Below are positions 851 through 56,653 of a stretch of DNA of 64,000 nucleotides, piece after piece. A program made the position numbers and the translations under genes. Numbering within the stretch: position 1 is the stretch's first letter; each line of letters opens with the position of its first letter. The notes under the pieces are model-generated. The model was not told the origin of the DNA. It saw nothing but the letters and a program-made list of their open reading frames with translations, and searched no databases. The DNA is from Agaricus subrufescens (lineage: Eukaryota > Basidiomycota > Agaricomycetes > Agaricales > Agaricaceae): positions 3,534,001-3,598,000 of the forward strand of contig CM057059.1 of the NCBI GenBank assembly GCA_029945375.1. The letters are read 5' to 3'.

Positions 851-3229
851 ATGTCCCTCCATGGCAGATCTATTGGCGCTCGCACAAAGGACTGGTTCAA
901 GCTCTGGAAACGACGACCGCGCCCCTCGTTGATCAGCCCTAATGAGCAAGGAGGTAGAGGTACTTAGAAGTGTTGCCCCTATCGACGATGTGCTAATGGG
1001 ATATCGTAGGTGCATTCTCCAATGCGCGGGACATCACTGTCAGCGGTGGACAGTTCATCGATGCAGATGAGATGAAATTGTACTATGTAAACAACGTCAT
1101 CTCATCCAAAGAAGTGGGTGCGTAATCTTTCTTATTAGCATAGGGAGTCTTCGCGCTGATTCTCGACCTAACAGTCTTCGAACTATTGGAACCGTATACG
1201 TGCCTCGATGCGACAAAAGACTCCAGTGCACGACATCCTCCTCCAAAATGTCATCCTGAAACCCGGCTGAAGATCAGGAAGAGGCTGGAACGGTGGCTCA
1301 TGAATGAGCCTGACGGATGGAAAATGCTCTGGGTCCGTGGTTCTGCCGGGACTGGCAAGTCTGCTGTTGCCCAATCGTTTGGTGACTCGTGTGGAAAGGA
1401 AAGGAGACATGGAGCGTCCTACTTCTTTTCCCGTCCCACTGGCAGAGACAAGATCGAAACTGTGGTACCCACCATCGTTTACCAGCTCGCTGCGATCATC
1501 CCCGAATACCGATCTCTCATAGGCCACCAGCTTGCCAGCAATCCCCTCTTACTACGCAAATCGGCACCCGTTCAGTTCCGGGAGCTCATTGTTGAACCAT
1601 TTGCCATCCTTCAACGTGATTGCCCTCATGACCCAATCGTCATCATCCTCGACGGCCTCGATGAATGTGAAGGAGAAATTGCTCAGCGAGAGATCCTTCA
1701 GATGATCACCGATGCCATTCGTACGAACCCAGATCTCCCGCTTCGGTGGCTGATTTTCAGCCGTCCTGAGGCACACCTCAAGAATGCATTCTCTCGAAAT
1801 GTTTTATGTGGCCGTGATGAGCTCATCATTGACGACGAGTGCCGGGAGAATGTGGGACGATATGTCGTGGATAGACTTGTGGAAATCAAGGCCGCATATA
1901 ATGATGTGACACCCGAAGTTTGGCCACCAGCAGATCAGCTCGAGGAACTGCTTAACGCTATTTCTGGTCTTTTCGTATTTGCGTCGACGTGTATAAACTT
2001 CATCGATGATCCAGAGGCCGGGGATCCACGTTCTCAACTGCATTCTTTGTTACTGTTTATTCGACGTTCGGAGGATGTCGTATCCAGGAACCCTCTTGCG
2101 GGACTTGATCTTCTCTACTCCCGAGTACTTGAGGGCATACCGTCTTCTGTGCTTGAAACTACAAGGCGGATTTTGGGGTACATGTCGCATCAAACTATAT
2201 TTTCCAGGACCCTCGGCTCCGCACAGGCGCTCGGTAACTTCTTGAGGCTCGACCAACATGATTTTCACAAAGCCGTGCGCGGACTTCATTCAGTCATGAG
2301 TATACCAGATAAAGAAGATGTCGCTGAGTCTCAACTACAATTTCATCATACCTCATTCCGGGACTTTCTCCTCAATCCTAACCGTTCTGGCAAGTTTGCT
2401 ATCAGCGAGAAACAGATGCTCGAAGACATTCTTCCTTTTGTTCTCTATTGGTGTGAGGTTGATATAGCGCTTTTTCACGCCAACGAGGGTGAGTAAGATT
2501 CGGGTGGAATTTGATGCGGAGAGTTTTTTCTGATAATTTTCAGGGTGGAGCTTTGATCTCGATCATGAACATGGTAGCCTACCTGGGTTGACATGGGCGT
2601 CGGAAGACAATGAACACCAGCTGACTAAATCAATTGTGTTGTTCCTGGAACAAGGCTTATTTACCCAGGTACACGATACACGATTGGATGGTACCAATAA
2701 AAATATTATCTCTCAACTCTCCAACGTTGATTTCCGGCACTGGTATCCTCTGAACGTTTTCATCCTTGCTCGCCTCTATGGACTGGTGAGTTTATCTTCC
2801 CACTCACCCTCGCTCTAATAGTGACCTTATTCAGGACCCCGCAACTGGGCTTGTGCGAACAGAACCATCGAACTTGACTGACCATCAGTTACTCAAATAT
2901 TTCAATCTCGTGATAGGAAACGGAATTGCCAAGCCGGCCGTGTTTCCTTTCATAAAGGTAGGCAATTATACTTGCCACCTTATCGCACACTAAACTACTC
3001 TCAGGCAACACCCGACTCTGGCTGGGCCCGAGAGTATTTTATTATTGGGCATGGAGTCAAGTCGATCATTGCCTGGACGACATTATCATCACCACATGAC
3101 ATCGATCATAGTGGATGCTTTTCGCTTCGGTGTGATGTAGAACCTTCTGAGGCGCAAATATCCAGCTACAAGGATCATCTGAAAGAGATCCAGTGGGATG
3201 AAGCGATAGCGGCCATGGAGATGAAATAA
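851..3229 (+). CDS. NACHT (STAND NTPase) protein, subfamily A, copy A1
   Basis: A six-exon model (851-953, 1010-1117, 1175-2488, 2544-2785, 2835-2957, 3005-3229) gives 704 residues with every junction in phase. Residues about 35-55 carry the GAFSNARDITVSGGQF motif typical of agaricomycete NACHT proteins. Next come the linker RHPPPKCHPETR, the Walker A loop GSAGTGKS (about 126-133) and the Walker B strand VIILDGLDEC (about 227-236). The C-terminal 200 or so residues show no WD40, ankyrin or TPR repeats; they are shared with copies A2 and A3 and I do not recognise them. Such proteins are nucleotide-switched signalling ATPases, several with roles in fungal non-self recognition or programmed cell death; a role here is inference. 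The start was chosen because A2 has the matching first exon (MSLH, RTK.WF.LWKRRPR). Confidence 0.85.
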
Positions 3230-3610
3230 GTTTTGGCTATGCAACTGGCGGTGTCGGGTGCTTTCCTTGGGACAATTTCCTGACTTAATGCTCTTGTTCA
3301 AGACTTTATTTTAGTGAACTGTATGTTGTCGGTCCCTTCATGCAACAGCTTGACCAGATTTCCAGCTCAGCCCATCGCCAAGTTGTGAATGTGGATGCTA
3401 CTTGGAGATTCGCATTAGCTCTTCGAGTATAACTCTTGTTGCGTCCACTTCAAAAAGGTTTTCACTAAATTGAGATTATCGTTACATGTACACGTGCGAT
3501 GGGCGGTGCACTGAGGGGTGCACTGATAAGCGCTGAATGCTGTCATTTAAAAACTAGACCTCTCACGCCAGTGCTTTTGTCTTCCATTCCCTATCCCCTT
3601 GCTTGCTACT
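3230..3610. other. Intergenic: promoter of NACHT B1
   Basis: No gene. The stretch from about 3360 to 3610 resembles the sequence upstream of the B2 pseudogene (about 8130-8349), including a 'GTCGTGAATGT'-like segment and a 'GCTGAATGCT' segment. The duplication that made the B copies therefore included the promoter. Confidence 0.5.
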
Positions 3611-6367
3611 ATGCCTCCGCGCAACAAAAAGGTGAAATCCAAGAAAAAGAAGATTCATACCCCTCCCTCAGCGGTCGTTAGTCGAGGAAGTGAACATATC
3701 GGTCAACTTGCTGGTAAAGCATCCTTCAGTTTCTAATAAATAGCTCACTCACATATAGTTAAGATACCTCAAGTGGAAAAGGGTCCGTTGTCCCGCCGAG
3801 CATTGCCATTAACGGTGAGTCATGAAAATTCGGCATCGGCGTCAGTATGCTAATACACTACACCACTAGCAACCGAAATCGGCCAGAATACAAGAGATAG
3901 TGGACGACATGCCTCGAATGCCGGTAAGAGGCTCCACCAAGTGCAAGCGAGAACGTTTGCTCACGTTGATTAGGTACCCCAAACGCTACAACCAACACGC
4001 GTCGCAGCAACACTCCCAATATTGGTGGGGGTGATAATGAAGGTTAGATGATGTTGTAGACTATGAATCAACTAGTGATCACTCTGCCAACTAGCTGTTG
4101 ATAGCAATACGATGGCGTTGAGCGGTTCTTTCAACCATGCGCACCATTTTGTACTCATAAATCCTACAATGGTGGACAATTCCACAAATATGATTAATCA
4201 TGTAGCAGGAGATCGGGAAGTCAAAGGTATTCATGCCTGATAAATCAAGATAGTAGTTACTTACAAAAAGGCGTTCAGCGAAAAAGCTCCTTTCGAAGCA
4301 CATGATTCAGGGTGCTGCCCACGACTCATCTGCCCGCGACCCTCCCCCTCGATGCCATCCAGGCACCAGAATCAGTATCAACGAGCGGATAATGGTCTGG
4401 TTCTACAACGAAAAAAAGCAGGAGTTAATCTTGTGGATTTACGGGCCTGCCGGGGTTGGTAAATCGGCCATTGTTCAGACCCTTGCCGACACTCTTGCCG
4501 CTGCCAAATGTCTAGGTGCTTCCGTCTTTTTTTCACGCCCAAACGGCCGCAACAATTCTCGCTCCGTCTTCATCACCATTGCTTATCAGCTCGCCATTCA
4601 CATCCCGGCTTACTGCGCCTTCATCAGTGAAAGGCTCGCTTCCGATCCCGAATTGGTGAACAAGGGCATGCAGGAACAGTTCAAGACATTCATTATCGAA
4701 CCCTTTGTGGAAAAGAGAATAAGAGCTGATGGGAAAACGTGGGGTATTTTATTGGATGGGCTTGATGAGCTTGATGAAAAGCGTTGGCAGCGTGAGATCA
4801 TCCGACTGGTCACGGCCTTTGCTCTCAAACATCCCAATGTTCCTCTCATCTGGGTCATTGCCAGTCGTCCAGAACCACATATCCTTGACACTTTCAAGGC
4901 GAAGAAAATAGCGTCCAGCTATCGGGAAGAGTATATTCCTGTGGACTCACCAGAAGCCTGCCGGGACGTTGAACGATATCTAAGGAGCAGCTTCGAGACA
5001 ATTCGTGAAGAATTTCCTCGTATTACCTCGGAGGATTGGCCCAAGGAGATAAAATTGACACAGCTTGCTCATGCTGCATCTGGACATTTCGCATTTGCCG
5101 ACGTTGCAGTCCGCTTCATTAGGGATGCCAGACACGCTGACCCAGTCACACGCCTGGATGATGTTCTGGCTGTTATTGAGCGTTCCAGAGTCCGTTCTGG
5201 TGAGGAGCAGCCTTTTGCGCATCTGGATGCATTGTATATGTGCATCCTTGCTTCTATCCCACGCAAGACATGGCCGCTAACCCAACAGATCCTCGTTGCC
5301 ATCAGCGAAATACCGGGCACTGTACTACATTGTACAAAGGTGCTTTCAATAATTCTTGGCGTCGAGTTGGGCAGGATTTACACCGCAATCAATGATTTAT
5401 ATTCAATACTCGACATATCTCCTGACGATGTCTATTCTCGATTGCGCTTTCACCATGCTTCGTTTGTCGATTTTCTACGGGACCCTAGTCGGTCGAGAGA
5501 ATTTTATACGCCCTTTGACAATATTGGGTTGCACGTATGGGATTGTGTCACTAGAATTTGGTTAGACTTCCAGAAGGAATCACCTCGAGGACCAAGTGAG
5601 TTGTTACATCTGCCTTCAATCCAAGCATTCACGATTTCGGTCTCAGAGTACGACGACAGGTGGCACAAATATATCTTACAACTTGACTTCGACGTGAACG
5701 TGTTTAACCAAGAATCAACTTCTTCACTGTTCTTTTGGATTCATGTTGCACTATCTGGGACGCTGAACAGCAAGTGGGGTCTCGTCCTAAAGAAACGATC
5801 ACCAGAACACTGGAACCAACTTGTCGAGATCCTGTGTCAGGTGGAAAATGATACTTTCTCTATGTCATGGCCAGATAGCTATGATGTTGCCTCTGCTTGG
5901 TTTGACGTTTGGAAAGTAAGCTCGGAATTTCACAATCTTAACTATGCTTTCGACATCTACTTTTCTAGATACGTCATACAGATCTCTCTGACAGGGGAGT
6001 TGTTCATCAGATCCGATTGGAACATCTCCAACTGAATCACCTGTGGTGGCCAGAGGAAGATCGAAAACATAGTGTAATGATTTTAGATCGGTACTCTAGT
6101 GAGGGACTTAGAGGGTCGAACACCTCTTGGGGTATAAATCAACTCGACGAATATATTTCAGGCCTCAAGTATTTCCAACAGCACTATCCGACACTTCCAG
6201 TATTAATTTGTGGAAATCGAGGGAATCGGTTTGCTGTATTTATATACGAGTACACTGAAGATGATTCCACAGAGCGGCCGCTTCATGTTGGTGTAAAGGA
6301 GGAACTAGATTTTGAAGAATATCGGTATCAGGGCGGCTACTGTATTCCATATTCCGATGATGTGTAA
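3611..6367 (+). CDS. NACHT (STAND NTPase) protein, subfamily B, copy B1, with a probable one-base frameshift
   Basis: Exons 3611-3713, 3764-3814, 3870-3923, 3974-4042, 4095-4226, 4271-5915 and 5969-6367 fit GT-AG sites. The N-terminus is lysine-rich (KKVKSKKKKIHTPP). A later exon has GSFNHAHHFVLINPTMVDNS, the usual motif before the NACHT domain. The large exon has RDPPPRCHPGTR, Walker A GPAGVGKS and Walker B GILLDGLDELDE. The exon from 4271 enters the NACHT frame only if one A is missing from the A-run at 4281-4285 (five present, six needed); otherwise translation could start at ATG 4302, which lies before the whole NACHT domain. With the frame joined the product would be about 817 residues. 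The C-terminal third has no recognised repeats and differs from subfamily A. The frameshift may be real decay or an assembly error. Confidence 0.7.
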
Positions 6368-6445
6368 TGTAGCTCCATTGACGTTGGCGTAATATGATGT
6401 ACACCTACATGAATTAGTGTGCTACATGCTGCTCCTCTTAGAGTT

Positions 6446-7692
6446 TCAGAGCGCCTCATAAGCCTCCCAAACCAACGTTCCAGCAACTTGACCACCGTAT
6501 GAGCTATCGTTATTTTCTGTGGTATCGTCGTCGTCAGTTACAGGGATGTCGAGCTTGATGGTAGCACAGTTGGCATTTAGTGCGCCTGGTTTGAGGAGTT
6601 CTGTTCTGGAGGTGGGTTCGGCTGAGAGAGCTTTGAAGGGAGTGGGCAGGAAGAGGGCATGCAACACAGATTGGATGGATGCTGTGGGGGATTCGGTATA
6701 GCAGTGGTGAGAGGAGCATATATCTAGGTAAAGATTAGTATTTTGTTATGAAAATGAGAATCGCCATACAATAAGACGCCAAACCAAGACAAGGTCATTC
6801 CAGACAAGCTCCAGTCGGCATTCAGCAGCCGCGAGACAATGTCCAGACAACTGATACCAGGGGACACGCTGACAGCCGCAATGTTGCTCTTCTGCATCCT
6901 GGAGCTGGCGATGGGGACCGCACTTGATCCATCTTCTGGTTTCGGAACCTGAGACTTTGGAAGTGCGTCCAGGATGCGCTGGAGGTGGCATGTGAGGACT
7001 ATGGTGTGGAGAGAATGGAGGCCTTCTGAGGGGACCATGGATCCATTTTTGGTGCCAAAGGCGAGGGTGAAGCGCTTGACCGCGGCGGCGTAAAAGGGGT
7101 TGATGACATTGACAATGCGTATGCCACGCTCGGCAGGGGCAACAAGGAAGGCGGGGAGGAGGAGTGTGGTGATCAGAAATGCGACGAAGGACTTGGAGTC
7201 GCGCTCACCAGCGCCAGCGATGTGCGGGCACTCGTGGGCAAAGACAAGGTCGTCCAGCTGGGTGTCGTCCTGGGAGAGGAACTAGGTGCAGGACCCTGAG
7301 GATATCGGGGGGTCAGCGAGGTTGCACTGTTCAGCATAGATGTGCTCGTTGCGGCAGGTTGTGCAGAGCAGGTTGACAAGGATGGGGTCAGGGGCAGGGT
7401 CGAGGGTGATGATGGTGACACCTCTGAGGTCGAGGGGAAAGAAGGCGCTGATGAAGAGGACGGTGTGTTTGTGAGTTATGCTGCAGATGATGGCGGTAAT
7501 GACGAGGACAGCGCAGACGACGAGCGGGCCAAGCCAGGTTGTGGAGATGAGACAGGGCACAACAGCCAGCAGCTTGTCTCTCTCTCTCTTCGATGGGCCT
7601 GAGCCGGCTGCTATATGATCTGACGCTGAACGTTGCCTGTTTTCCCAATCTGCGCTACATCCACACCCTGCATCTCGTGAGTCCCACTGCAA
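6446..7692 (-). pseudogene. Short-chain dehydrogenase/reductase-like pseudogene
   Basis: Read from 7692 downward, the frame has a hydrophobic segment (WLGPLVVCAVLVITAIIC) that could be a membrane anchor. It is followed by LDLRGVTIITLDPAP and CRNEHIYAEQCNLADP, then after a stop by LDDLVFAHE, RIVNVINPF and VSVSPGIS, the order of a diverged Rossmann-fold reductase of basidiomycetes. Three defects are visible. An in-frame TAG sits at 7282-7284 where the context (CT-stop-FL) suggests an arginine codon. The probable intron after 6770 joins the wrong frame. The C-terminal part (VLHALFLPTPFKALS to YGGQVAGTLVWEAYEAL) is open only in the other frame, so a short deletion must lie near 6690-6710. The gene sits antisense between two NACHT copies. 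The substrate is unknown. Confidence 0.7.
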
Positions 7693-8349
7693 TTTGCCAG
7701 GGTCTTCCGCTCACACCATGCAACCATTGTACTAAGGATGGTTTAAAGACTTGAGGAAGACGGAGCGGGGCTTGGGTCTACTTGGACAAATGCTTAGATT
7801 GATGTAGACGACGGTGGAAGGTAGGTGAGGGCGACGTCCAGGGCAGGAGAAAACAACAGAGCTCGTGGGCATCCATGGTGAGGAGGCTGACCGAGACGAG
7901 TTTATAGAGTCCAAACAAATAAACACACGTTCACAATCTTATCTTATCTCTCCCTCTGCTTCCTGTCCTTTCCCAAGTTTTTGCTCAGATCCACTCGGCG
8001 CACGAAATACAACTCACCAACTGCTTGGCTACTCGCTATCCTGACACCCAATCAGCCCGTTCATATATAAATGACCCAAGATGTCAGCAGTCAGATCCGC
8101 TCTCGCAATGACCGTATTCCCCAGCTTAGTGTCCTGCAAGGTCGTGAATGTAGATGCTGTTTGAAGGAGTTTCACACCACCTCATCCTGCATTTGAAATA
8201 ACCTCACTAAACTAAAATAGCCATTGCATCTACATTGCATCTACATAGCAACTATGGCGATGCACAGACAAATGCTGAATGCTATGGTTTAAAAACAAAC
8301 CTCCACGCTACACATCTTTCTTCCCTTACCCATCTCCTCACTTGCTGCA
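7693..8349. other. Intergenic: upstream of pseudogene B2
   Basis: No supported gene. The last 220 bases are a diverged copy of the promoter of NACHT B1. Confidence 0.45.
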
Positions 8350-9490
8350 ATGCTTCCGCTCTCTAAAATGAAGTTAAAATCCAAGGGAAAGAAGATTCAT
8401 ACCTCTCTATCTGCATTGTTTAGTCAAGGACAGGAACGTAGTATGGAACTACCTGGTAAATTCTCTTCGAGTTTCTGACAGAATGACCAACTCATGCAGG
8501 GTCAAGTTCAGCCAGGCAAAGCAGTGATGAATGTTCCGGTCAGTATTAGCATCGAGGGCGAATCTTCTGAAGGTCAGCATCGTCGCCGGCGTGCGGGAAC
8601 ATCATGCTGATACATAGGTAGCACCTTGGACCAGCCATAACACAAACAATGACGAACAAAATGTCCTGAATGCTGGTAGGAGCGTACAAGTTGTAATATT
8701 GAACATCCGCTAAGGTCAAACAGATACCCGAAGTACTATAGCCAGTACGCATCACAGCAACATTCCCAATATTGCTGGGGAAATTTATGAAGGTTAGCTG
8801 ATATGACATTCGGCCGTATATCCTGCTTTAATGAGTCGACCTGTTAATTAAGTCTTGATATCAATATGACCAGCTCAACCGGGCTTTTCCCCAATGCTCA
8901 AAATTTTGAGCATTGGAAAACAGGAGTTGATCCTTTGGATCTACAGGCCTGCAGGGGTTGGTAAATCGGCCATCGTTCAGACCATTGCCGACACTCTTGC
9001 CGCTGCCAAATGTCTCGATGCTTCCGTCTTTTTTTCGCACCCCAACGGCCGCAACAATTCTCGCTTCTATCAACTGGCTATCCACATCCCGGCTTACTGT
9101 ACCTTCATCAGTGAAAGGCTAGCTTCTGATCCTGAATTGGTGAACAAGAGCATGAAGGAGCAGTTCAACATGTTCATTGTTGAACCCTTTGCAGACAGGA
9201 AGATAGGGGTAGATGGCAAACCATGGGATATACTATTGGATGAGCTTGATGAACTCGATGAAAAGCCGTGGCAGCGTGAGATCATCCGCTTGGTCACAAT
9301 CTTTGCTCGCGAACATCCCAATGTCCCACTCGTCTGGGTCATTGCCAGTCGTCCAGAACCACATACTATTGACATTTTCAAGTTGATGCAAATAGCGTCC
9401 AGCTATCGGGAAGAGTACAGTAACCAACATTTGTATTGCACCACCCTTTATGTGCCAATAGCGAGTGATTGCAAAACCCGGGAGCTCTGA
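8350..9490 (+). pseudogene. Deleted NACHT subfamily B copy (B2)
   Basis: The first exons parallel B1: a lysine-rich start (MKLKSKGKKIHT), a short exon ending VLNAG, and an exon with SNIPNIAG. After about 8800 the exon carrying the pre-NACHT motif is missing. Sequence resumes at about 8918 inside the NACHT domain (ELILWIYRPAGVGKSAIVQT). A short deletion removes a few residues near 9065. The Walker B region is degraded to DELDELDE, so the glycine-leucine of B1's LDGLDELDE is lost. Similarity stops after SSYREEYS at about 9419, so the C-terminal half of the family is absent. A perfect 26-base palindrome occupies the internal deletion junction. The copy cannot make a working NTPase, although the 198-residue fragment from 8894 is open. 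Confidence 0.8.
8891..8916. repeat. Perfect 26-base palindrome at a deletion junction
   Basis: The left arm CCAATGCTCAAAA is followed at once by its exact reverse complement TTTTGAGCATTGG. Outside it, TTTTCC and GGAAAA also pair if two extra C bases on the left are looped out. It lies exactly where pseudogene B2 jumps from its N-terminal exons into the NACHT exon. Confidence 0.9.
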
Positions 9491-48487: not shown

Positions 48488-48873
48488 AACTGTACTGCTT
48501 ATGTTACTAGTCTAGATACGATTTGTACAATTATGTAGGTTTGCTTACTTCGGCAGTGTAGGGTGTCCCAGTGTTCTACTAGGGGCCAAGCGTAGTGCAC
48601 TGTGAGACCCGGGGTTAGGGAGATCACCGAGCTTATGTACGTGTGAATGTAGGGTATAGACTTGACTAGGACTTGACTAATCCAGAGTTTTGATCTGTGC
48701 TTACCCTATCTTGTAAGCGAGATATTTCCAAGACTAACTTTCACTTCCCTGACTTATATAATTGGGGAATTCCTTACTTAATATGTGAAATAGTCAAAAT
48801 TAAACCGGGTTTAAGTTAGGAGAATAATAAAAGAATAATCCTATGAAATTTCGGTAAAGGCCCCAACAAAAAG
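48488..48873. other. Intergenic between convergent genes
   Basis: 3' UTRs of two convergent genes. No gene is seen. Confidence 0.5.
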
Positions 48874-49749
48874 CTAGCATTTCTTTGGTTTTTTCCCCTT
48901 CCCTACATCTTTGCCATTATCCTCATCTTGATACCTTCGTTTCAGCCCCTTATGTGTTTCCTTTCGAGCCTCTTCATCCACACCATCTTCATCGTCCATC
49001 TCGTCACTCGATTGAGCCCCACTCTCAGAACCCTCCTCATCTCCCAAGTCACTGTCAGACCCCTCCTCATCTCCCGGGTCACTCTCATTCTCGGACCCCT
49101 CCTCATCTCCTGGGTCACTCTCATTCTCGGACCCCTTCTCATCTCCTGGGTCATTCTTCTTCATCGAGGCAGACTTCGTCAAGGCAGACTTCTTCGTCGA
49201 GGCGGACTTCTTCGTCGATACAGACTTCCTCGTCGAGGCAGACTTCTTCGTCAAGGTGGAATTCGTGGTCTTTGAAGCCTATTTGTCGGTAGTCATTAAA
49301 ATAAAATAAGAAAATATGTAACTGAATATACCTCTTCGATAGATAGCTCTTCCTCAGCGGTAGGCTCCATTAACTCAGCAGCTGTATCAACTTCCATTGG
49401 CGTCGAGGGCTCATCCTCTACATGAATAGACTCGTCGCTACGTGTGGTTTTCCTCAAAGGGGGTCAGAAGACGTTTATGGCGAGATATGAAAGCCAACCT
49501 TTTCCTCGAACTCCTCTTCGTTGGGGCTAGGGATGAGACACCATTCTCGTCGACATTCGGAGGGCAAGATTTTTGTGCTTCTTTCCTGGAGCGGCATCAG
49601 AGGCGGATGATTAGTATACATTGATTAAGAACCAGGTACCTCTTTGAGCCTTTGGCTTTTGCAGCCTTTGGCGGCACAGTCGGACCACTGGGATTGGATG
49701 ATAGCGTTGAGGCGTTTGTAGCGCTTCTAGTTTTTCGTTGAGTCGCCAT
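48874..49749 (-). CDS. Repeat-rich nuclear-type protein, 240 residues
   Basis: Four exons (49640-49749, 49499-49585, 49332-49452, 48874-49278) join in phase. The N-terminus is basic and serine/threonine-rich (MATQRKTRSATNASTLSSNP, APTKRSSRKRKTTRSDES) and is followed by an acidic stretch. The last exon starts with five-residue lysine/serine repeats of the type STKKSA, then 12-residue acidic repeats (DPGDEEGSENES), and ends in a basic tail (KDVGKGKKPKKC). Alternating basic and acidic tracts suggest a nuclear or chromatin-bound protein. No folded domain is visible and I recognise no family. The repeat numbers probably vary between strains. Confidence 0.7.
49060..49255. repeat. Coding minisatellites (36-base and 15-base units)
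   Basis: The 36-base unit encoding DPGDEEGSENES is repeated between 49060 and 49155 with one diverged flanking unit. Next to it, 15-base units built on CTTCGTCGAGGCAGA run to about 49255. Both units are multiples of three, so changes in copy number keep the frame. Confidence 0.8.
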
Positions 49750-50907
49750 TGGCAGAGAGTTGCTCTAAGTACTCACATTAATCGACTACATGAGCCTTTA
49801 AATATGTGAAGCGGTTGACGATCTGAATCGGTAGCCAAGAAAGAATTAGGAACGAATCTGGTAATCAGCTCATTCTCCTGGAGGGCGATTGAAACATTAC
49901 GCACCATCCAACTGAAGCCGTTCACCGCCATGCCGAAACACCAGATTCAATCGTGATCGGAATATTATACAGCTTTTCAACACGCAATCTGAAGATTAAA
50001 ACATTAATAAATAAATTCAACGTTGATGCTCCATTTTGAATGGCTCTGGAAGGGAGACTGACCTATAAAACGAACTTGGGGGAGGAGGGAAGGGCAAGGC
50101 GCTTTAAACATCAATCCAACTCGTATAGAAAATGCAACGGCGCTTGTAGCGGAACCTTGTAACAATTGCGAACCTATGATATTGGATAACAAAAGACAGT
50201 AACCCAATGACCGACGACCGACGACCAGTAACCAACGACCGATGACCGACGACCAGTAACCGACGACCGACGACCTAAGCTCCGACGACTTCATGAGGAA
50301 TAATTGATCATGTCCGGTCCGAATAGAGATCGGGCAAGGACAAAACAAATGTTTGGAAACCGCATAGGTTTGTGATTACACTAGAGATAGTGAATGTCCT
50401 ACTTTGGATGGTTCGAGAAAAGAGGACCGACCTACTATGTACAAATTGGAAGAAGTAGGAGTGCGGCCTGTTGAACGATTTCTCTGACTAGTATAAAAGA
50501 ATTAATGTAGTAGCATTTGCAGCGACGAATCTGAACTCCGACGACCGATAATCCAAGTTCCGGATCCAAAAGTGAGGAATGAACCGAACAAAGGCCGGGA
50601 GATGACGAGACAGATGTTTGCAAAGGTCCGCCGATACAAGAGAAGCGAAGAGTTGTTCATGACAACCATCAATACGCAAGGCCTAAGTGCTGGTACCGAT
50701 ACGGGTCTTGTCCATCGGAAACGACTCCAGATGGATAGGCGGGGATGCCTGGAATTCCGTACCCAGTGGCAATGGTCATTGATGGGCAAAGAGATGAAGT
50801 AATTGCGAGAAAGCCTTACGAGTATCGCCGAGGGACCACATATAAAGGTTGAAGACTATGATCGAAAAGCCATCATCTCCTATCCTTCGCTACAACGAGC
50901 ATCGACT
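49750..50907. other. Intergenic with degenerate repeats
   Basis: No supported gene. Besides the CCGACGACC array, segments near 50280-50360 and 50530-50625 resemble each other (CTCCGACGAC, then CCGAA and ACAAATGTTTG / ACAGATGTTTG), suggesting an old tandem duplication of about 250 bases. Confidence 0.5.
50208..50275. repeat. CCGACGACC short tandem array
   Basis: Units of ACCGACGACC and ACCAGTAACC alternate, forming two larger repeats of about 32 bases. Confidence 0.8.
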
Positions 50908-51557
50908 ATGAGCTCTCAATTTCCCGCTTCTGGAAGTGGTTTTGATTGTTTCACTGAGCCAGATTCTTCGTCAATTCATTACTTTGATTATTCTGGTGCT
51001 ACTCCGCCGTTCCAGAGCCAGCTGGACGAGGAAGCCTGGAAGGAAGAGCGCGCAGCCTGGAGGAAAGAACGCGCACTCCGAGAAGCGAAAGATGCAAAAA
51101 AAAGAGAAAGTAGGTCAAAATTCATTCATTCTGCAATATGATTAGACTAATCATGTTTCCAGTAATTGTTATTAGCAGTTCACCTCCAGGCTCCCCTTCA
51201 GTCACGGTTGAAAAAGATAAACCTTCCGGTTCGAGAGGAATCTATAGTCGGGAGATGATGGCGCGTATCAGGAGACGTAAAGAGCGCAAAGGCAAAGCCA
51301 AGGAGGTCCAGCCAGAGATCGCTGTACCTAAAAGGAAAAGGGACATAGGTACGGATCCCATTGAAAATGGGGTAAAGGAAACGAGTGCCGGTGGTGACAT
51401 ACCTCACAAGAAACAGAGAGTGAGTTGTGCACTGACCATAGATTTCTGTATAATCTAACATGTCAACCAGACGCTCAAACATCTCGCAGTAGATATACCA
51501 ACCGATGCTTGTTCCGTGAAGGTGGTTATAAAGTTTGCTGGGGACAATGTTGAGTGA
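50908..51557 (+). CDS. Small basic nuclear-type protein, 181 residues
   Basis: Three exons (50908-51109, 51163-51419, 51471-51557) are all in phase. The N-terminus is hydrophilic (MSSQFPASGSGFDCFTEPDS) and followed by a charged helix (EEAWKEERAAWRKERALREA). Exon 2 begins IIVISSSPPGSPS, which looks like a SUMO-interacting motif, followed by basic runs (RIRRRKERKGKAKE, PKRKRD) that could be nuclear-localisation signals. The last exon gives a short end (LKHLAVDIPTDACS). I do not recognise the family. It lies directly before a transposase relic on the same strand and may belong to a transposon, but nothing in it proves that. Confidence 0.65.
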
Positions 51558-52234
51558 GGCACGAAGACAAGGCGGTTATTTTGCCTTGTTTGTTCTACGC
51601 GTATCTGATGTATAGTCGTTTCGAACTTAATGCATTTGGGGGAGTCTTATTTGACTCTGTTTGTCCACGATCACCTCACAACGCTGACTTGATGCAGTCC
51701 TTCCCCTCTGCGACTCGTGGTACTTGCCTCTGGCGGCGATCTATCTCTACCTGGATTCTGCTTTGAATCCCCCTCAACTATATTCTCTCTATCTTTCACA
51801 ACCCTAGCACCTGTGCCTTCTGTTGAGATTGAACATCGTTGTCTCAATCTCAAATTTTACCTTGTAGGATGCGCTCACCCTCCGTACATGTAGTGGCGTT
51901 TGATCCTGATTGTCTCCACTTGTTGGTCGCTGGCTATTTTCACCCTTCGATTTGGCCCTCAAATGTGTACTTCACTTTGGTGAGTTTTATCGTTAGAATC
52001 GCATGTGAGCACCTAGGCTGAGATTTATCTCTTCTGAATGTTCAGCATACCGATTTTCTCGCCTTTCGATGGTTTACCTGCTCCTAATGCCACGTCGTGG
52101 TCTCCCCCAACCACCCTACTTCTCAATAATCCACGCACTGCCATTGTGCACGTGTGTGAACACGCTACCTATGCATTGGGACCGTCTGTCATCATTTTGT
52201 TCCCTTGACTGTCTACCTCCTGTTAGCCCTTCCT
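51558..52234. other. Intergenic, no supported gene
   Basis: GGCACGAAGACAAGGCGG just after the preceding gene recurs in altered form (GGTACGAAGACGAGGCGAG) near 54000, on the far side of the transposase relic. This could mark the flanks of an insertion. Confidence 0.4.
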
Positions 52235-53841
52235 ATGGATTCCAGCCGACTCGGAGTACAAAACAAGTCAGCCTGCATATGTACTTGCGGCTGCAACAAG
52301 TACGTTTCCTATCCCACGAGGCGAGCGCACTTAGCGGCAAAAAGGGCTGTGGCTACGACCGCGGAGTCCCCGGATGACTGTCCGCCCCTTCAAAATGATA
52401 GCCTCGTTGCGGGGAAGAAGCATCAGCGCTCAAACTCCCCTGAAGACCGCAGTGAAGATTGGGAGGATAGGCGGGACGATGCCCCTAGTCCCGGCCCGCT
52501 TCAAATTGAAAACATAGATTCTCCACCACAATCACATTCTAGTAACCCATCGAAGCCCCTTCCCAATATCGCTTTGCAACAATCTCAGATGACGGCAGAA
52601 ATGTATTCGAACTGGACCCTTTTCGTTGCGCCTATTCTGTTGAATGAAAGGTTTCGGCAAAAAAAATACTATCAACATTTCCTGAAGCTCGTCGAGCTGC
52701 TCAAAATTTGTTTGGAGCTTGAGATTGATGACGAGATGTTGGATATAATAGACACTGGCTTTCGCACTTGGGTAGAGGACTATGAAAAGTGAGTTTCCGT
52801 ATACATACCTAATCTCGTGTATTTCTAATTTCACGTCACCTCGACTCATTTCAGGTTTTACTATTTATATCAGCCCCGTCGTCTCTCAGCCTGCCCCCTA
52901 ACAGTTCATGCTCTTCTTCATATTGCATGGGGTATTCGGGTTGCGGGTCCAGTCTGGACTTACTGGGCTTTCCCGATGGAACGGCACTGCAATACCTCCT
53001 ACCCTCCATCAGAAGTCGACGACACCCTTATTCAGCCATCGCCGCCTTCGTCAATGCAATGGCCCAGCTTGATCAAGTGCGGTTGAAGTATAACCTTTAT
53101 TCGGAACTAAGCTTCACAGCCCCTAAAGCAGAACTATCGGTGAACGATCTGATATCCAACTCATGTACGTTGTCATGTTCCTTAATGTGTAGACTCCAAA
53201 CCACGTCGTATCAGATTCGTCCTACAAGCTCTCTCCACCACGACGACGCGAATCTGTGCCTATGTATCTCCGAGACAAAATTTTTGCGGCTTTGGCAACA
53301 CGATTTGAAAAACCAAAACTAACTGTCAAAACGCTCATCAGCCTCGATGGGCCCGTTCTTCACTACGCCAGGATCCATATTCTATTTGGGGGAGATACGA
53401 TTGTAGGTTGTGACTTGGTACGAAGAGGTGAGGACTCGCGCGACGCTTCCTTCATTAAAGTGAGTGCTTTGTAGTCTTTCGTGAGATTCCCATATTGAAC
53501 CAACCAAATAGTATGTTCAGATGGTTGACAAGTGCACACACCAACGAAACCGCCAACCGGTCTACGTGAAGCGGTCGTTCTTTGGACAACTGAAGCGGGT
53601 GCTCGTGATTGACTTACCTAGTATACCCCCATTAGGTCTCAATTCATCAACGACCGTCATATATGCCGTGGTGCAAACTGTCAAAATCACTCAAAAGAAC
53701 GACTTCTATACATATCAAAAAACTGGAACCGTACAAGTAGTAGATTTGAACACGGTGCAATGTGTAGTCGGACGAGTCCACGATAGAGGCCGGTGGAGTA
53801 TTGTTGATAGGACAGGTATTTCGAGAGGAGATGACGATTAG
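52235..53841 (+). pseudogene. Plavaka-type (CACTA-like) transposase, internally deleted and frameshifted
   Basis: Four exons (52235-52788, 52855-53164, 53215-53459, 53512-53841). The N-terminus has a cysteine cluster (SACICTCGCNKYVSYPTRR), as at the start of agaricomycete Plavaka transposases. The order then jumps to the C-terminal part: LPNIALQQSQMTAEMYSNW, WVEDYEKFYYLYQPRRLSAC, PLTVHALLHIAWGIR, GPVWTYWAFPMERHCN, IRSRRHPYSAI, and the end FFGQLKRVLVIDLP to VQCVVGRVHDRGRWSIVD. The central transposase core of several hundred residues is missing. A one-base loss near 52990 shifts the frame after MERHCN; exon phases confirm it, since exon 2 is one base short. The product cannot transpose on its own. 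Confidence 0.85.
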
Positions 53842-54277
53842 GTATGCACCCCGTGCCCTCCTCTCGATTGTGCACACTAACAGTTCAGATAGTTTTTTTT
53901 GACTGACTTTTTTTTATTTATTTCATTTGATAATAATGGATCCACACTTCACCGTTATGATCATTCAGAAAACCAGGCTTTAATATGCTAATAGTGAAGG
54001 TACGAAGACGAGGCGAGATCAAAGGACAGCAATCTCAAGAATTATATCAAATGTGAGTGCGCGCGAGCCTTAATATTGTACAATATACTTCAAAAAAATT
54101 TACAGATCAAATTCAAGACAAATACGACACTCAAAGCAAGAAAACACAACAACAAGAAAAAAAGATTTGCTTACAGCATTGGTAAACCTTTTGCATACTC
54201 GAACTCACCATGCCCGCGCCCGGAACTCAGAGCGACTGCGACCGCGGCGGGACCATCTCCCCCCGTTCAAAAACAAT
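53842..54277. other. Intergenic leading into the hairpin region
   Basis: A/T-rich with oligo-A runs. No gene is supported. Confidence 0.45.
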
Positions 54278-54632
54278 CGGGAACCGATGTTCCCGTCGTA
54301 GACATGCAGAGTAACCTCTGCATGTCCCCCGAAAAACCCCCTTATAGTCCAGTGTGCAGGTTCTCCCCCTGCACACCTGGACTTGTGGTATCGTCCCCTA
54401 ATCAAAGGTAAGTGCTCAATCATGTTTAAAAAACATAAAATACTCACATCAGCATCCATTCAACTCTCCTCCCTCGCAGAATCCGCATGAGGAGCCCCCT
54501 GTGGCTCCTCAATGCTCCCTTCAAAGCTTCAAGAGCATCCCTCCTCTCAAACCACCCAGGGACAAAATTAGGGGCTCTATGATGTTCTTGAATGCCCCTG
54601 GGTGCGAAATAATACGAAAAGCGCGACATCTT

Positions 54633-54688
54633 GGGAAGGGGACACCGGTTGGGAGAGGGGGGGGAGGTGATGGGAGGTGATGGGAGGG
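54633..54688 (+). other. G-rich tract with G-quadruplex potential
   Basis: Runs GGG, GGGG, GGG, a run of eight G, then GGG, GGG and GGG are separated by short spacers, more than the four runs needed for a quadruplex. It lies in the middle of the hairpin region. Confidence 0.7.
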
Positions 54689-54747
54689 CCAAACGAGCGC
54701 GGGATCTCGCGCGACGTCGGTCACGCTGAGCACCCGCGCTCACGTCG

Positions 54748-54821
54748 ATGGTCGACGTTCGCGTCGACCATTGAAGTCGTTTGCGAACGACTCCAACGAA
54801 ACGCGACCACTTTGTGGTCGC
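54748..54821. other. Three-hairpin cassette, copy A
   Basis: Three consecutive hairpins: one with core GTCGACGTTCGCGTCGAC, one GTCGTT-TGCG-AACGAC and one GCGACCAC-TTT-GTGGTCGC. Same order and similar spacing as copy B. Confidence 0.85.
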
Positions 54822-54838
54822 ATTTGAGTCTTCTTATC

Positions 54839-54871
54839 ATCCGGCTCTTGAGGGAGAGCCGGATTTTTTTT
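54839..54871 (+). terminator. Hairpin followed by eight T, terminator-like
   Basis: A perfect 10-bp stem (ATCCGGCTCT with AGAGCCGGAT) with a 6-base loop is followed directly by eight T (54864-54871). In bacteria this would be an intrinsic terminator; in a fungus a T-run of this kind could end an RNA polymerase III transcript. Function is inference. Confidence 0.4.
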
Positions 54872-54894
54872 GTCCGTTTTTTTTCTTCAGATTC

Positions 54895-54978
54895 TGGCAG
54901 TCGACGTTCGCGTCGACTGTCAGGGTCGTCTAGCGACCACCCGGACGAAACGCGACCACTCGATGGTCGCGTTTCGTC
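54895..54978. other. Three-hairpin cassette, copy B
   Basis: The first hairpin shares the 18-base core of copy A, but its outer pairs are exchanged: A has T-A and G-C, B has C-G and A-T. The second is GGTCG-TCTAG-CGACC. The third begins with the same ACGAAACGCGACCA arm as copy A and extends to a perfect 15-bp stem. Confidence 0.85.
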
Positions 54979-55158
54979 GTTTGTCTCTTTAGTTTATTAA
55001 AATAAAAAAAGTATGATTTTCTCAAGTTTAAGTCCGGTAAAACTACCCGGACATACATGTATATTTAAGCCTTAACATATGTACGCCTTTTCCTGACATT
55101 TTTTGTCAGGAAAAAACGTGCTTAAGACGTTTCTAAAAAATGTGTATTATGTATGGCC

Positions 55159-55253
55159 CGAACAAATTTAGGAGATTACGCTAACCCCGATCTAGGGCTA
55201 GGATTTTCCCTAGCCCCGGGGCTCACAGTGGTGGTTAGCATTCACAATGTTCG
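55159..55253. other. Nested three-layer inverted repeat
   Basis: CGAACA (55159-55164) pairs with TGTTCG near 55248, GCTAACC near 55180 pairs with GGTTAGC near 55232, and GGGCTAGG (55195-55202) pairs with CCTAGCCC (55209-55216), all in nested order. Confidence 0.75.
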
Positions 55254-55870
55254 TGTAAGCTAGATCGCTTCGATGCTGACCAGGTACTGACACAGACACT
55301 TGAACCAGATATCGGTCGAATGGCCCACTTTTAGAAATGAAATGGTAGCGTAAAGGAGTGGGCCGAATGTTCCGATGTCACGTTCATTGGTTCCGCATGC
55401 CAACTTGACCAAATGACAGCCGATCCGGCAGTACTTGTTAGTTTTGTTATCGGATATATAATCCGCAGCTCAGGATTGAGATTTCAGCAGTTGTGAAACG
55501 TGCTGCGGTGAAAGCCCTTTATCATTAACCCCGCGAATGATATCAAGTTTGATCAGATTAGCTTGTTGATCCGCACTGATCGACATCATGATGACAGGGA
55601 AAAGATGTCAGGAGGAAATCAGAATTTCAGTCGATTCGTGGGCCAACGCATACCATTGGATCGTTCATGGGTGAATGGTGAAACAGAACTTGAACTTGAG
55701 GGTGAAAAGGGTGGTATTACAAAGTCCGCAGCAGCAATGAGGGAGGATGACGAATCAGACCGGTGATAACTGACGACACGACATAGTGCCCTGTACCTTG
55801 CCTGTACCAAGCACCAGGAGCCGCCGACAGAACAAGACATCAGAGAACTGAGGAGGTCCCGCGGTTGGAG
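55254..55870. other. Intergenic: upstream of DJ-1 copy d
   Basis: No gene supported. Confidence 0.5.
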
Positions 55871-55933: not shown

Positions 55934-56653
55934 ATGTCCACCTACGAATCCCTGGCCGGAAAGACAATCCACATCGGAGTTGTCCTCCTTCCCTCATACC
56001 AACTCTTCGATGCAGCAGCCCCCGTCGACTATCTCAACTCTCATTCCAAAGCCTTGCTCACCGAATTTGGTGCCCCCGCACACTTGATCGCTCGAGCGGC
56101 TGAGATGCACTGGTACTACATCGCTGAATCAGCTGAGGAACCAGTTCAAGCATCGTCTGGGCCTGCCCAGATCCCCACTCACTCTTACAAGAATCCTCCA
56201 CCTCATCTTGACTATCTCATTGTTCCTGGAGCAAACCCGGCAGTTCCCCTTTCCCTTGATTGCACCAACTTCCTCAGAATATACGTTCCGAAAGTTCGAG
56301 CGTTGTTAACCGTCTGCACTGGCTCTCTTTGCATTGCGCCAACGGGCGTGCTGGATGGTTATAGTGTCTGTTCAAACAAGTTCATTTTACGCCGCCTCGC
56401 TCTAGCAAATGAATTACCGAAGGGAATCAATTGGGTCGGTGATAGGAGGTGGATTGTAGATGGAAAGATGTGGACTGCTGGAGGTATCACAGCAGGACTT
56501 GATTTGGCGGGAGAATTTGCGAGGAGACACTTCGACCACGATGTCATTGAGTTGGTCAAAGAGATTGCCGAAGAGACGCCGAAGCCTGATGTACCTGATG
56601 AGTGGGCGAAGATTACAGAAGGGCTTGGACTGACTGCCAATAAAGATATCTGA
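55934..56653 (+). CDS. DJ-1/PfpI family protein, copy d
   Basis: A single exon of 239 residues, very close to copy a in both protein and DNA although it lies about 15.6 kb away. The elbow LLTVCTGSLCIAPTG and the strand HIGVVLLPSYQLFDAAAPVDYL are present; here the leucine before the conserved acid is phenylalanine (QLFDA). The 5' UTR and TATA region also match copy a, including CACCTCATAAG directly before ATG. Copies b and c, which lie nearer to copy a, are more diverged. No defect is seen. Confidence 0.88.
   Translation: MSTYESLAGKTIHIGVVLLPSYQLFDAAAPVDYLNSHSKALLTEFGAPAHLIARAAEMHWYYIAESAEEPVQASSGPAQIPTHSYKNPPPHLDYLIVPGANPAVPLSLDCTNFLRIYVPKVRALLTVCTGSLCIAPTGVLDGYSVCSNKFILRRLALANELPKGINWVGDRRWIVDGKMWTAGGITAGLDLAGEFARRHFDHDVIELVKEIAEETPKPDVPDEWAKITEGLGLTANKDI

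Follow-up and report, generated by a model that had tools for sequence, protein, structure and literature searches.

A dense array of perfect hairpins at the right end of a CACTA/EnSpm element in Agaricus subrufescens

The element and its copies

The window, a stretch of 64,000 nucleotides of the A. subrufescens genome, holds a non-autonomous CACTA/EnSpm element of 6,633 bp at 48598-55230, oriented on the plus strand by its transposase gene tnp2. The element begins with a 5' terminal inverted repeat (48598-48620, plus strand, CACTGTGAGACCCGGGGTTAGGG) and finishes with a 3' terminal inverted repeat (55208-55230) that reads CACTGTGAGCCCCGGGGCTAGGG on the minus strand. It is bordered by the target-site duplication GTG at 48595-48597 on the left and 55231-55233 on the right. 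The left end carries a minus-strand open reading frame for a lysine/acidic-rich protein without a Pfam match (48874-49278). The remains of tnp2, with N-terminal and C-terminal parts, lie on the plus strand at approximately 52235-53841, and they are followed by a small gene on the minus strand, convergent to tnp2 and here called gene 2 (54205-54629), and by a run of perfect hairpins that starts within gene 2 at 54278 and ends with the element at 55230.

A DNA search of the genome with the array stretch, as proposed in the preliminary description of this locus, recovered eight near-identical copies, and the similarity runs over 48598-55230 and ends there, the ends being common to the window copy and seven other sites. 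All eight copies start with CACTGTGAGACCCGGGGTTAGGG and finish with CCCTAGCCCCGGGGCTCACAGTG, and all eight have the terminal inverted repeats CACTGTGAG...CTCACAGTG, with CAC at the start and GTG at the finish. Their fifth base is G, which makes CACTG and not CACTA the literal core, and the ends read CACTG...CAGTG. A perfect 3-bp target duplication borders each of the eight copies (GTG, CCC, ACT, AAG, CTT, GAA, ACA, and AGG).

Four copies are of a long form of 9,500 bp, mutually identical and with a Tnp2 transposase; Transposase_21 (PF02992) is matched with an E value of 2e-26 in one of them (L023) and is also matched at the other three. A DUF4218-like piece follows this domain (E 1.3e-5) with a score of 25.5 bits, which is below the 27-bit cut-off, and of the motifs typical of CACTA/EnSpm transposases, a catalytic DDE with C(2)C and H(3-4)H, a CRVC stretch is visible in the transposase ORF. 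The genome has 94 PF02992 matches. Among the best 120 of 1201 transposase relatives, those with an organism name come from Agaricus bisporus, Amanita muscaria, and Hypsizygus marmoreus, and a search of viral contigs for tnp2 relatives gave three pattern matches, none of which was confirmed.

The other four copies are shortened. The window copy is identical to two others of 6,633 bp (L027 and L028), and the fourth measures 6,669 bp. All four have the same two internal deletions, one near the left end (junction at 49154-49157), where 1.09 kb of the 9.5-kb copies is absent, and one within tnp2 (junction at 52552), which removes 1.74 kb including the Transposase_21 domain. PF02992 had no match in the tnp2 pieces of the window copy, and their DUF4218-like piece also scored below its cut-off. 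The four shortened copies probably go back to one deletion event; both deletions lie outside the array, and its retention in all four lends weak support to a function.

The element thus belongs to the CACTA/EnSpm superfamily and was recently active, and the window copy is a non-autonomous deletion derivative. At the level of the superfamily, this overturns the earlier statement that no named fungal nuclear element resembles the stretch. Helitrons make no target duplication and have a CTRR 3' end; this class, initially suggested by the hairpin at the 3' end, was ruled out by the target duplications and the CAGTG end. KDZ transposons, which make an 8-bp target-site duplication, were ruled out by the 3-bp duplication found at all eight copies.

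The hairpin array is no free-standing structure but occupies the right subterminal region of this 6,633-bp element. The proposal that it is a structure of a mobile element was therefore right in outline, the array being the subterminal end of a DNA transposon, but its replication, packaging, or extrachromosomal form found no support: the element that bears the array is chromosomal and has both terminal repeats and target duplications, and nothing indicates an extrachromosomal or packaging structure.

The transposon is directly followed on its right by a DJ-1/PfpI gene (PF01965, E 2.2e-10) at 55934-56650. Three further stretches of the window, between about 40241 and 44950, resemble its DNA with 90%, 81%, and 71% identity, so that a small local gene family is probable.

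The hairpin array and gene 2

The 976 bases of 54278-55253 were scanned for stems with perfect Watson-Crick pairing and loops of 3-8 bases. Thirteen non-overlapping stems of at least 6 bp were found, of which 12 have at least 7 bp. The preliminary description had counted at least sixteen perfect hairpins; the dense run is there, but a count of exactly sixteen would need 5-bp or interrupted stems. Its judgement that random sequence would not give so many is borne out, since stems of 7 bp or longer averaged 0.35 per sequence, with a maximum of 2, over 200 dinucleotide shuffles; with the limit set at 8 bp, the array has 10 stems and the shuffles average 0.12. Beyond the array, no kilobase bin of the 64-kb window has more than two such perfect stems. 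Folding agrees with the stem counts: for 54278-55230 the minimum free energy z-scores are -17.8 (RNA parameters, plus strand), -17.2 (DNA, plus strand), and -16.3 (RNA, minus strand), and in each case 0 of 20 shuffles folded as low, in the comparison with shuffled sequences that had been proposed earlier. A control stretch within the window gave a z-score of -1.6. The run of perfect hairpins in 54278-55230 is real and far above chance. Its boundary is the terminal repeat that ends at 55230, so that the extent first given for it, 54278-55253, holds as far as this repeat, and the last 23 positions (55231-55253) are flanking DNA. The stems are clustered at the end downstream of tnp2 only and not at the other end of the element.

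Three lettered hairpins lie in exon 2 of gene 2, namely P0 (54278-54295, 7-bp stem), P1 (54301-54326, 11-bp stem), and P2 (54346-54383, a compound 15-bp stem with a bulge). They are followed by a 6-bp stem in the intron (54422-54436) and a 9-bp stem in exon 1 (54488-54511). Between gene 2 and the terminus stand B1 (54748-54771, 10 bp), C1 (54775-54792, 7 bp), D1 (54803-54821, 8 bp), E (54839-54864, 10 bp), B2 (54898-54919, 9 bp), D2 (54944-54978, a perfect 15-bp stem), G (55088-55114, 11 bp), and H (55195-55216, 8 bp), the last of which overlaps the 3' terminal repeat. The two TTCG loops reported earlier are present in B1 and B2, the hairpins that start at 54748 and 54898. Hairpins B, C, and D form a 75-nt unit that occurs twice on the plus strand (54751-54825 and 54900-54974), the second copy being 75% identical to the first. 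A GTCG core occurs 22 times in the array, compared with a mean of 8.6 and a maximum of 16 in 200 shuffles; by eye, it is common to the B, C, and D hairpins only, and most stems have no one motif in common. Exon 1 of gene 2 also contains two interleaved long stems at 54528-54604 (54528-54539 with 54581-54592, and 54553-54564 with 54593-54604), which would give a pseudoknot-like fold.

The stretch had been described as holding no gene, which proved incorrect, for a spliced gene that has relatives occupies 54205-54629 on the minus strand. Gene 2 has two exons and a 50-bp intron (54398-54447) and encodes a product of 124 amino acids. In a diverged relative of the element on C9, its start, intron position, and frame end are kept, but stops are present, and the two exons are 48% and 63% identical to those of the window. 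Its protein is also 34-39% identical to that of a more distant CACTA element at C5:1059612, with the intron at the same place, a position thus common to the window, C9, and C5 homologues; a second distant match lies at C9:2455578. By these sequence comparisons, gene 2 is a conserved passenger, convergent to tnp2 in three CACTA lineages of the genome. It has no match in Pfam, and the 16 candidate homologues from the protein collection included none at E <= 0.01. A structure prediction for exon 2 (63 residues, from three sequences) was too poor to use, with a mean pLDDT of 62.1 and a pTM of 0.45.

Gene 2 accounts for 352 of the 953 bases of the array (54278-54629), coding or intronic, and the remaining 601 bases are non-coding. 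When the codons of gene 2 were shuffled synonymously with the intron kept, 0 of 100 shuffles folded as low on either strand (z-scores of -4.8 on the gene strand and -6.1 on the other). Four stems of the gene reach 7 bp and sum to 36 bp, compared with a mean of 2.5 bp in 300 codon shuffles and a maximum of 22 bp in another 300. The non-coding part alone (54630-55230, between the start of gene 2 and the 3' terminus) gave a z-score of -11.2. The palindromes thus extend through gene 2 and the non-coding part alike, and the demands of the protein sequence do not explain them.

Relatives of the array

The right end of the C9 element also folds far below expectation (last 450 bases, z-score -12.6). 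In a comparison that is biased, because the hairpins were chosen as recognisable in both elements and the registers were set by eye, 7 of 8 hairpins are still paired. The 76 pair cells compared comprise 58 that are the same, 5 with a one-sided change to G-T, 7 with double changes that still pair, 2 mismatched in the window and paired in C9, and 4 that are broken, of which 3 are in P0 (3 of its 7 pairs) and 1 in B1. Hairpin G alone has three double changes in seven pairs. On this reading, the C9 element has a paired equivalent for 7 of the 12 stems of the window that reach 7 bp; it has a broken one for P0, and none that is clear for the exon-1 stem, B2, D2, and H. C9 also bears stems without a counterpart in the window. 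Within the window, the two 75-nt units give a similar picture, with 3 double changes, 1 one-sided change, 1 mismatch that is paired in the other unit, and 0 broken pairs among 26 cells. In the C9 relative (L033, near 5290), the loop of hairpin E contains CTCACAGTG, nine bases identical to the 3' end of the element, which may be chance.

A decayed copy on C13 (L030:7813-8376) covers the last 564 bases with 77% identity. Nothing in it matched positions 1938-8936 of the long form, and its left terminus was not found, so that it may be no more than a fragment. All 53 CpG sites of the active copies are lost in it, and its CpG observed/expected ratio is 0.05, compared with 1.12 in the window array. 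Such a total loss is as expected of methylated DNA, and the sequence suggests methylation-driven or RIP-like decay in the host fungus. The right end of this copy folds with a z-score of only -3.9, and the 78 pairs of eight stems comprise 51 that are unchanged, 6 with double changes that still pair, 8 G-T, 11 A-C, and 2 others.

Two of the loops are inverted between the window and C13. The loop of hairpin E is TGAGGG in the window and CTCTCA in C13, and that of hairpin G is TTTTT in the window and AAAAA in C13; over both loops, 10 of 11 sites match when inverted and 0 of 11 directly. Transversions separate the two copies at 9 of these 11 sites and at 21 of 549 aligned sites elsewhere. The flipped hairpins have arms of 10 bp (E) and 11 bp (G) and loops of 6 and 5 bases. 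Among six further loops, five favour the direct orientation and C1 is tied; B1 (10 bp) and D2 (15 bp), with stems as long or longer, have unflipped loops in C13.

Hairpin density was compared at a few CACTA ends of the genome. In the C5 lineage with gene 2 (L040), three stems of 7-8 bp lie within or near this gene, one of them a counterpart of P1 in a 7-bp version with one double change, but the stretch from gene 2 to the terminus bears no stem that reaches 6 bp, and no segment of 500 bases folds with a z-score under -2.2. The element end L038 has no stem of at least 7 bp and a z-score of -2.7. These ends indicate that the array is unnecessary for CACTA mobility in general. L037 (C7:410700-412260) has one stem of 7 bp and a z-score of -2.9; by eye it is two-ended, about 300 bp long, with CACTG-type ends, and is perhaps a miniature CACTA element, which at this size would have no room for an array and is evidence neither way. 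L039 (C1) and L036 (C5) had no convincing 3' terminus in the stretch examined and were left out of the counts.

Outside the family and its C13 and C9 relatives, a genome search with the whole array found only its last 77 bp, at two other element ends. These ends, L034 (C5:3250963) and L035 (C2:4025829), belong to a different element that has only this stretch in common with the present one (94%). Beyond the 77 bp they show by eye a TAATCATGATTA-like repeated motif and a dispersed long palindrome with a perfect 47-bp stem, and 72 of 78 genome matches fall in the palindrome stretch, many of them on both strands. Their last 900 bases have a z-score of -11.8, which is lowered by the dispersed palindrome, and they were not counted as bearing the same array.

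Origin and possible role of the hairpins

In plant CACTA elements, the subterminal regions contain arrays of a short repeated motif that is bound by a TNPA-like helper protein. In the available part of the soybean work, the CACTA element Tgmt* has 12 stem-loops in 732 bp at its right border and 2 at its left, and the 14 stems are built from one 17-bp motif with the core TTGGCAG (PMC2613891). The fungal element resembles the soybean elements Tgmt* and Tgm1, as described there, in its CACTA termini, 3-bp target duplication, and strongly asymmetric subterminal region (PMC2613891). It differs from Tgm in that its stems vary in sequence, the array extends through a small convergent gene, and the host is a fungus. 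The fungal EnSpm/CACTA elements of two reports share with it Transposase_21 (PMC1636069) as well as CAC..GTG ends and 3-bp target duplications (PMC12730594), as far as the available parts of these reports go; the word "hairpin" is absent from both main texts, and no hairpin array in a fungal CACTA element was found in the open-access literature. The superfamily is known, and so, from soybean, are asymmetric end arrays; what sets the present array apart is its varied stems, their course through coding sequence, and the fungal host.

The position, size, asymmetry, and number of the hairpins, which are like those of the soybean array, make a cis-acting role at the DNA level our first choice, and it is by this analogy that we infer a function in the transposon end. 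The roughly 600 non-coding bases and the adjoining end of gene 2 would form a cis element, a cluster of two-fold symmetric sites for a putative element-encoded DNA-binding protein that would help Tnp2 to assemble on the right end, as proposed for plant CACTA stem-loop arrays. Polymerase template switching from one arm to the other, while the region is single-stranded (for example during replication or gap repair after excision), would give rise to the palindromes, preserve their perfection, and now and then flip them; it would explain why pairing stays perfect while the arm sequence changes. To this combined reading we assign a probability of about 0.5. The variety of the stems speaks against the binding sites, since stems without one common motif, unlike those of soybean Tgm, are poorly suited to one binding protein.

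In yeast, spacer inversions were reported, in the available part of the study, only where the arms exceeded 9 bp, the spacers being 2-5 bp long (PMC8604942), and template switching is described as both creating and repairing stems in the part of a second report at hand (PMC8794818). The array shares with the mutations of these reports its perfect short-loop palindromes, spacer inversion, and multi-base compensatory changes (PMC8604942, PMC8794818). The cases given there, so far as the two texts were available, lie in yeast genes and RNA genes and not in a dense array at a transposon end (PMC8604942, PMC8794818). Loop flips and multi-base double changes are expected products of template switching; they point to pairing at the level of DNA and would mean that the arms do pair in living cells. 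From one diverged relative (C9) and one decayed relative (C13), we think that this is so and that template switching accounts for the perfection of the arms.

The same process could also act without any benefit to the element, palindromes simply accumulating through template switching or quasi-palindrome correction in a stretch that is often single-stranded. We hold this possible, if somewhat doubtful. It would account for the inverted loops of E and G, for arms that stay perfect in C9 though their sequence changed, for palindromes that enter the coding sequence of gene 2, where no codon shuffle folds as well on either strand, and for the C5 lineage that has the same gene without the array; but the other end of the element was not filled by the same process, and the number, position, and asymmetry of the hairpins resemble those of the soybean arrays. 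An RNA-level structure, acting toward the 3' end of the tnp2 transcript or toward the 5' end of that of gene 2, with an effect on stability, translation, or silencing (as trigger or suppressor), seems improbable to us. The very low folding energy on both strands fits such a structure, and so does the place of the array, downstream of tnp2 and across gene 2 and its upstream region. The non-Watson-Crick pairs beside the stems nevertheless show no strand preference (G-T to A-C ratios of 2:3 in the window and 0:1 in C9), and the stem pairs of C13 include 8 G-T and 11 A-C; the counts are small, and C13 looks dead, so that this is mild evidence against a role as RNA. Nor does any Rfam family fit: in 48500-55400 none reached its gathering score, the only weak match being Guanidine-III with 22.5 bits against 36, and the earlier suggestion of a folded non-coding RNA has no counterpart among the known families.

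A nest of independent palindromic mini-elements, inserted one after the other, is very improbable. Most hairpins do have a sequence of their own, and the genome does contain a dispersed long palindrome, inside the C5 and C2 elements described above, but exact patterns of the two hairpins that were searched singly, D2 and E out of 13, occur only in copies of the element or in the C9 relative, and the whole-array search elsewhere returned only the last 77 bp at two other element ends. These searches already largely refute the nest. Nor is the array a GC-rich palindrome that spreads by itself, as palindromes of the REP or double-hairpin type do when they lie singly dispersed outside any larger element: D2 and E were found only inside the eight copies and, for D, in the C9 relative. 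An artefact of assembly or contamination by mitochondrial, plasmid, or vector DNA can be practically dismissed, since the element sits at eight sites, each with its own flanks and a clean target duplication, and the array is linked to a tnp2 whose named relatives are from agaricomycetes.

Beside the preferred reading of a cis-acting end with binding sites, we consider a bolder one, though an unlikely one, in which a class of fungal CACTA elements would have its right end recognised by shape and not by a sequence motif, as a set of DNA hairpins or cruciforms extruded from the subterminal region that template switching keeps perfect, though their sequences drift, and that extend even into the coding sequence of gene 2. 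In that case gene 2 may encode a structure-binding helper.

How perfect palindromes come about, and what preserves them, is among the open questions of genome evolution. Here one genome offers a dense set of them in eight near-identical copies, a relative with compensated arms, and a decayed copy with two flipped loops, so that the notion that template switching builds and maintains hairpins becomes testable at a mobile element. The array also raises the question whether CACTA ends can be recognised by structure, and it has brought to light gene 2, a small conserved gene linked to CACTA elements.
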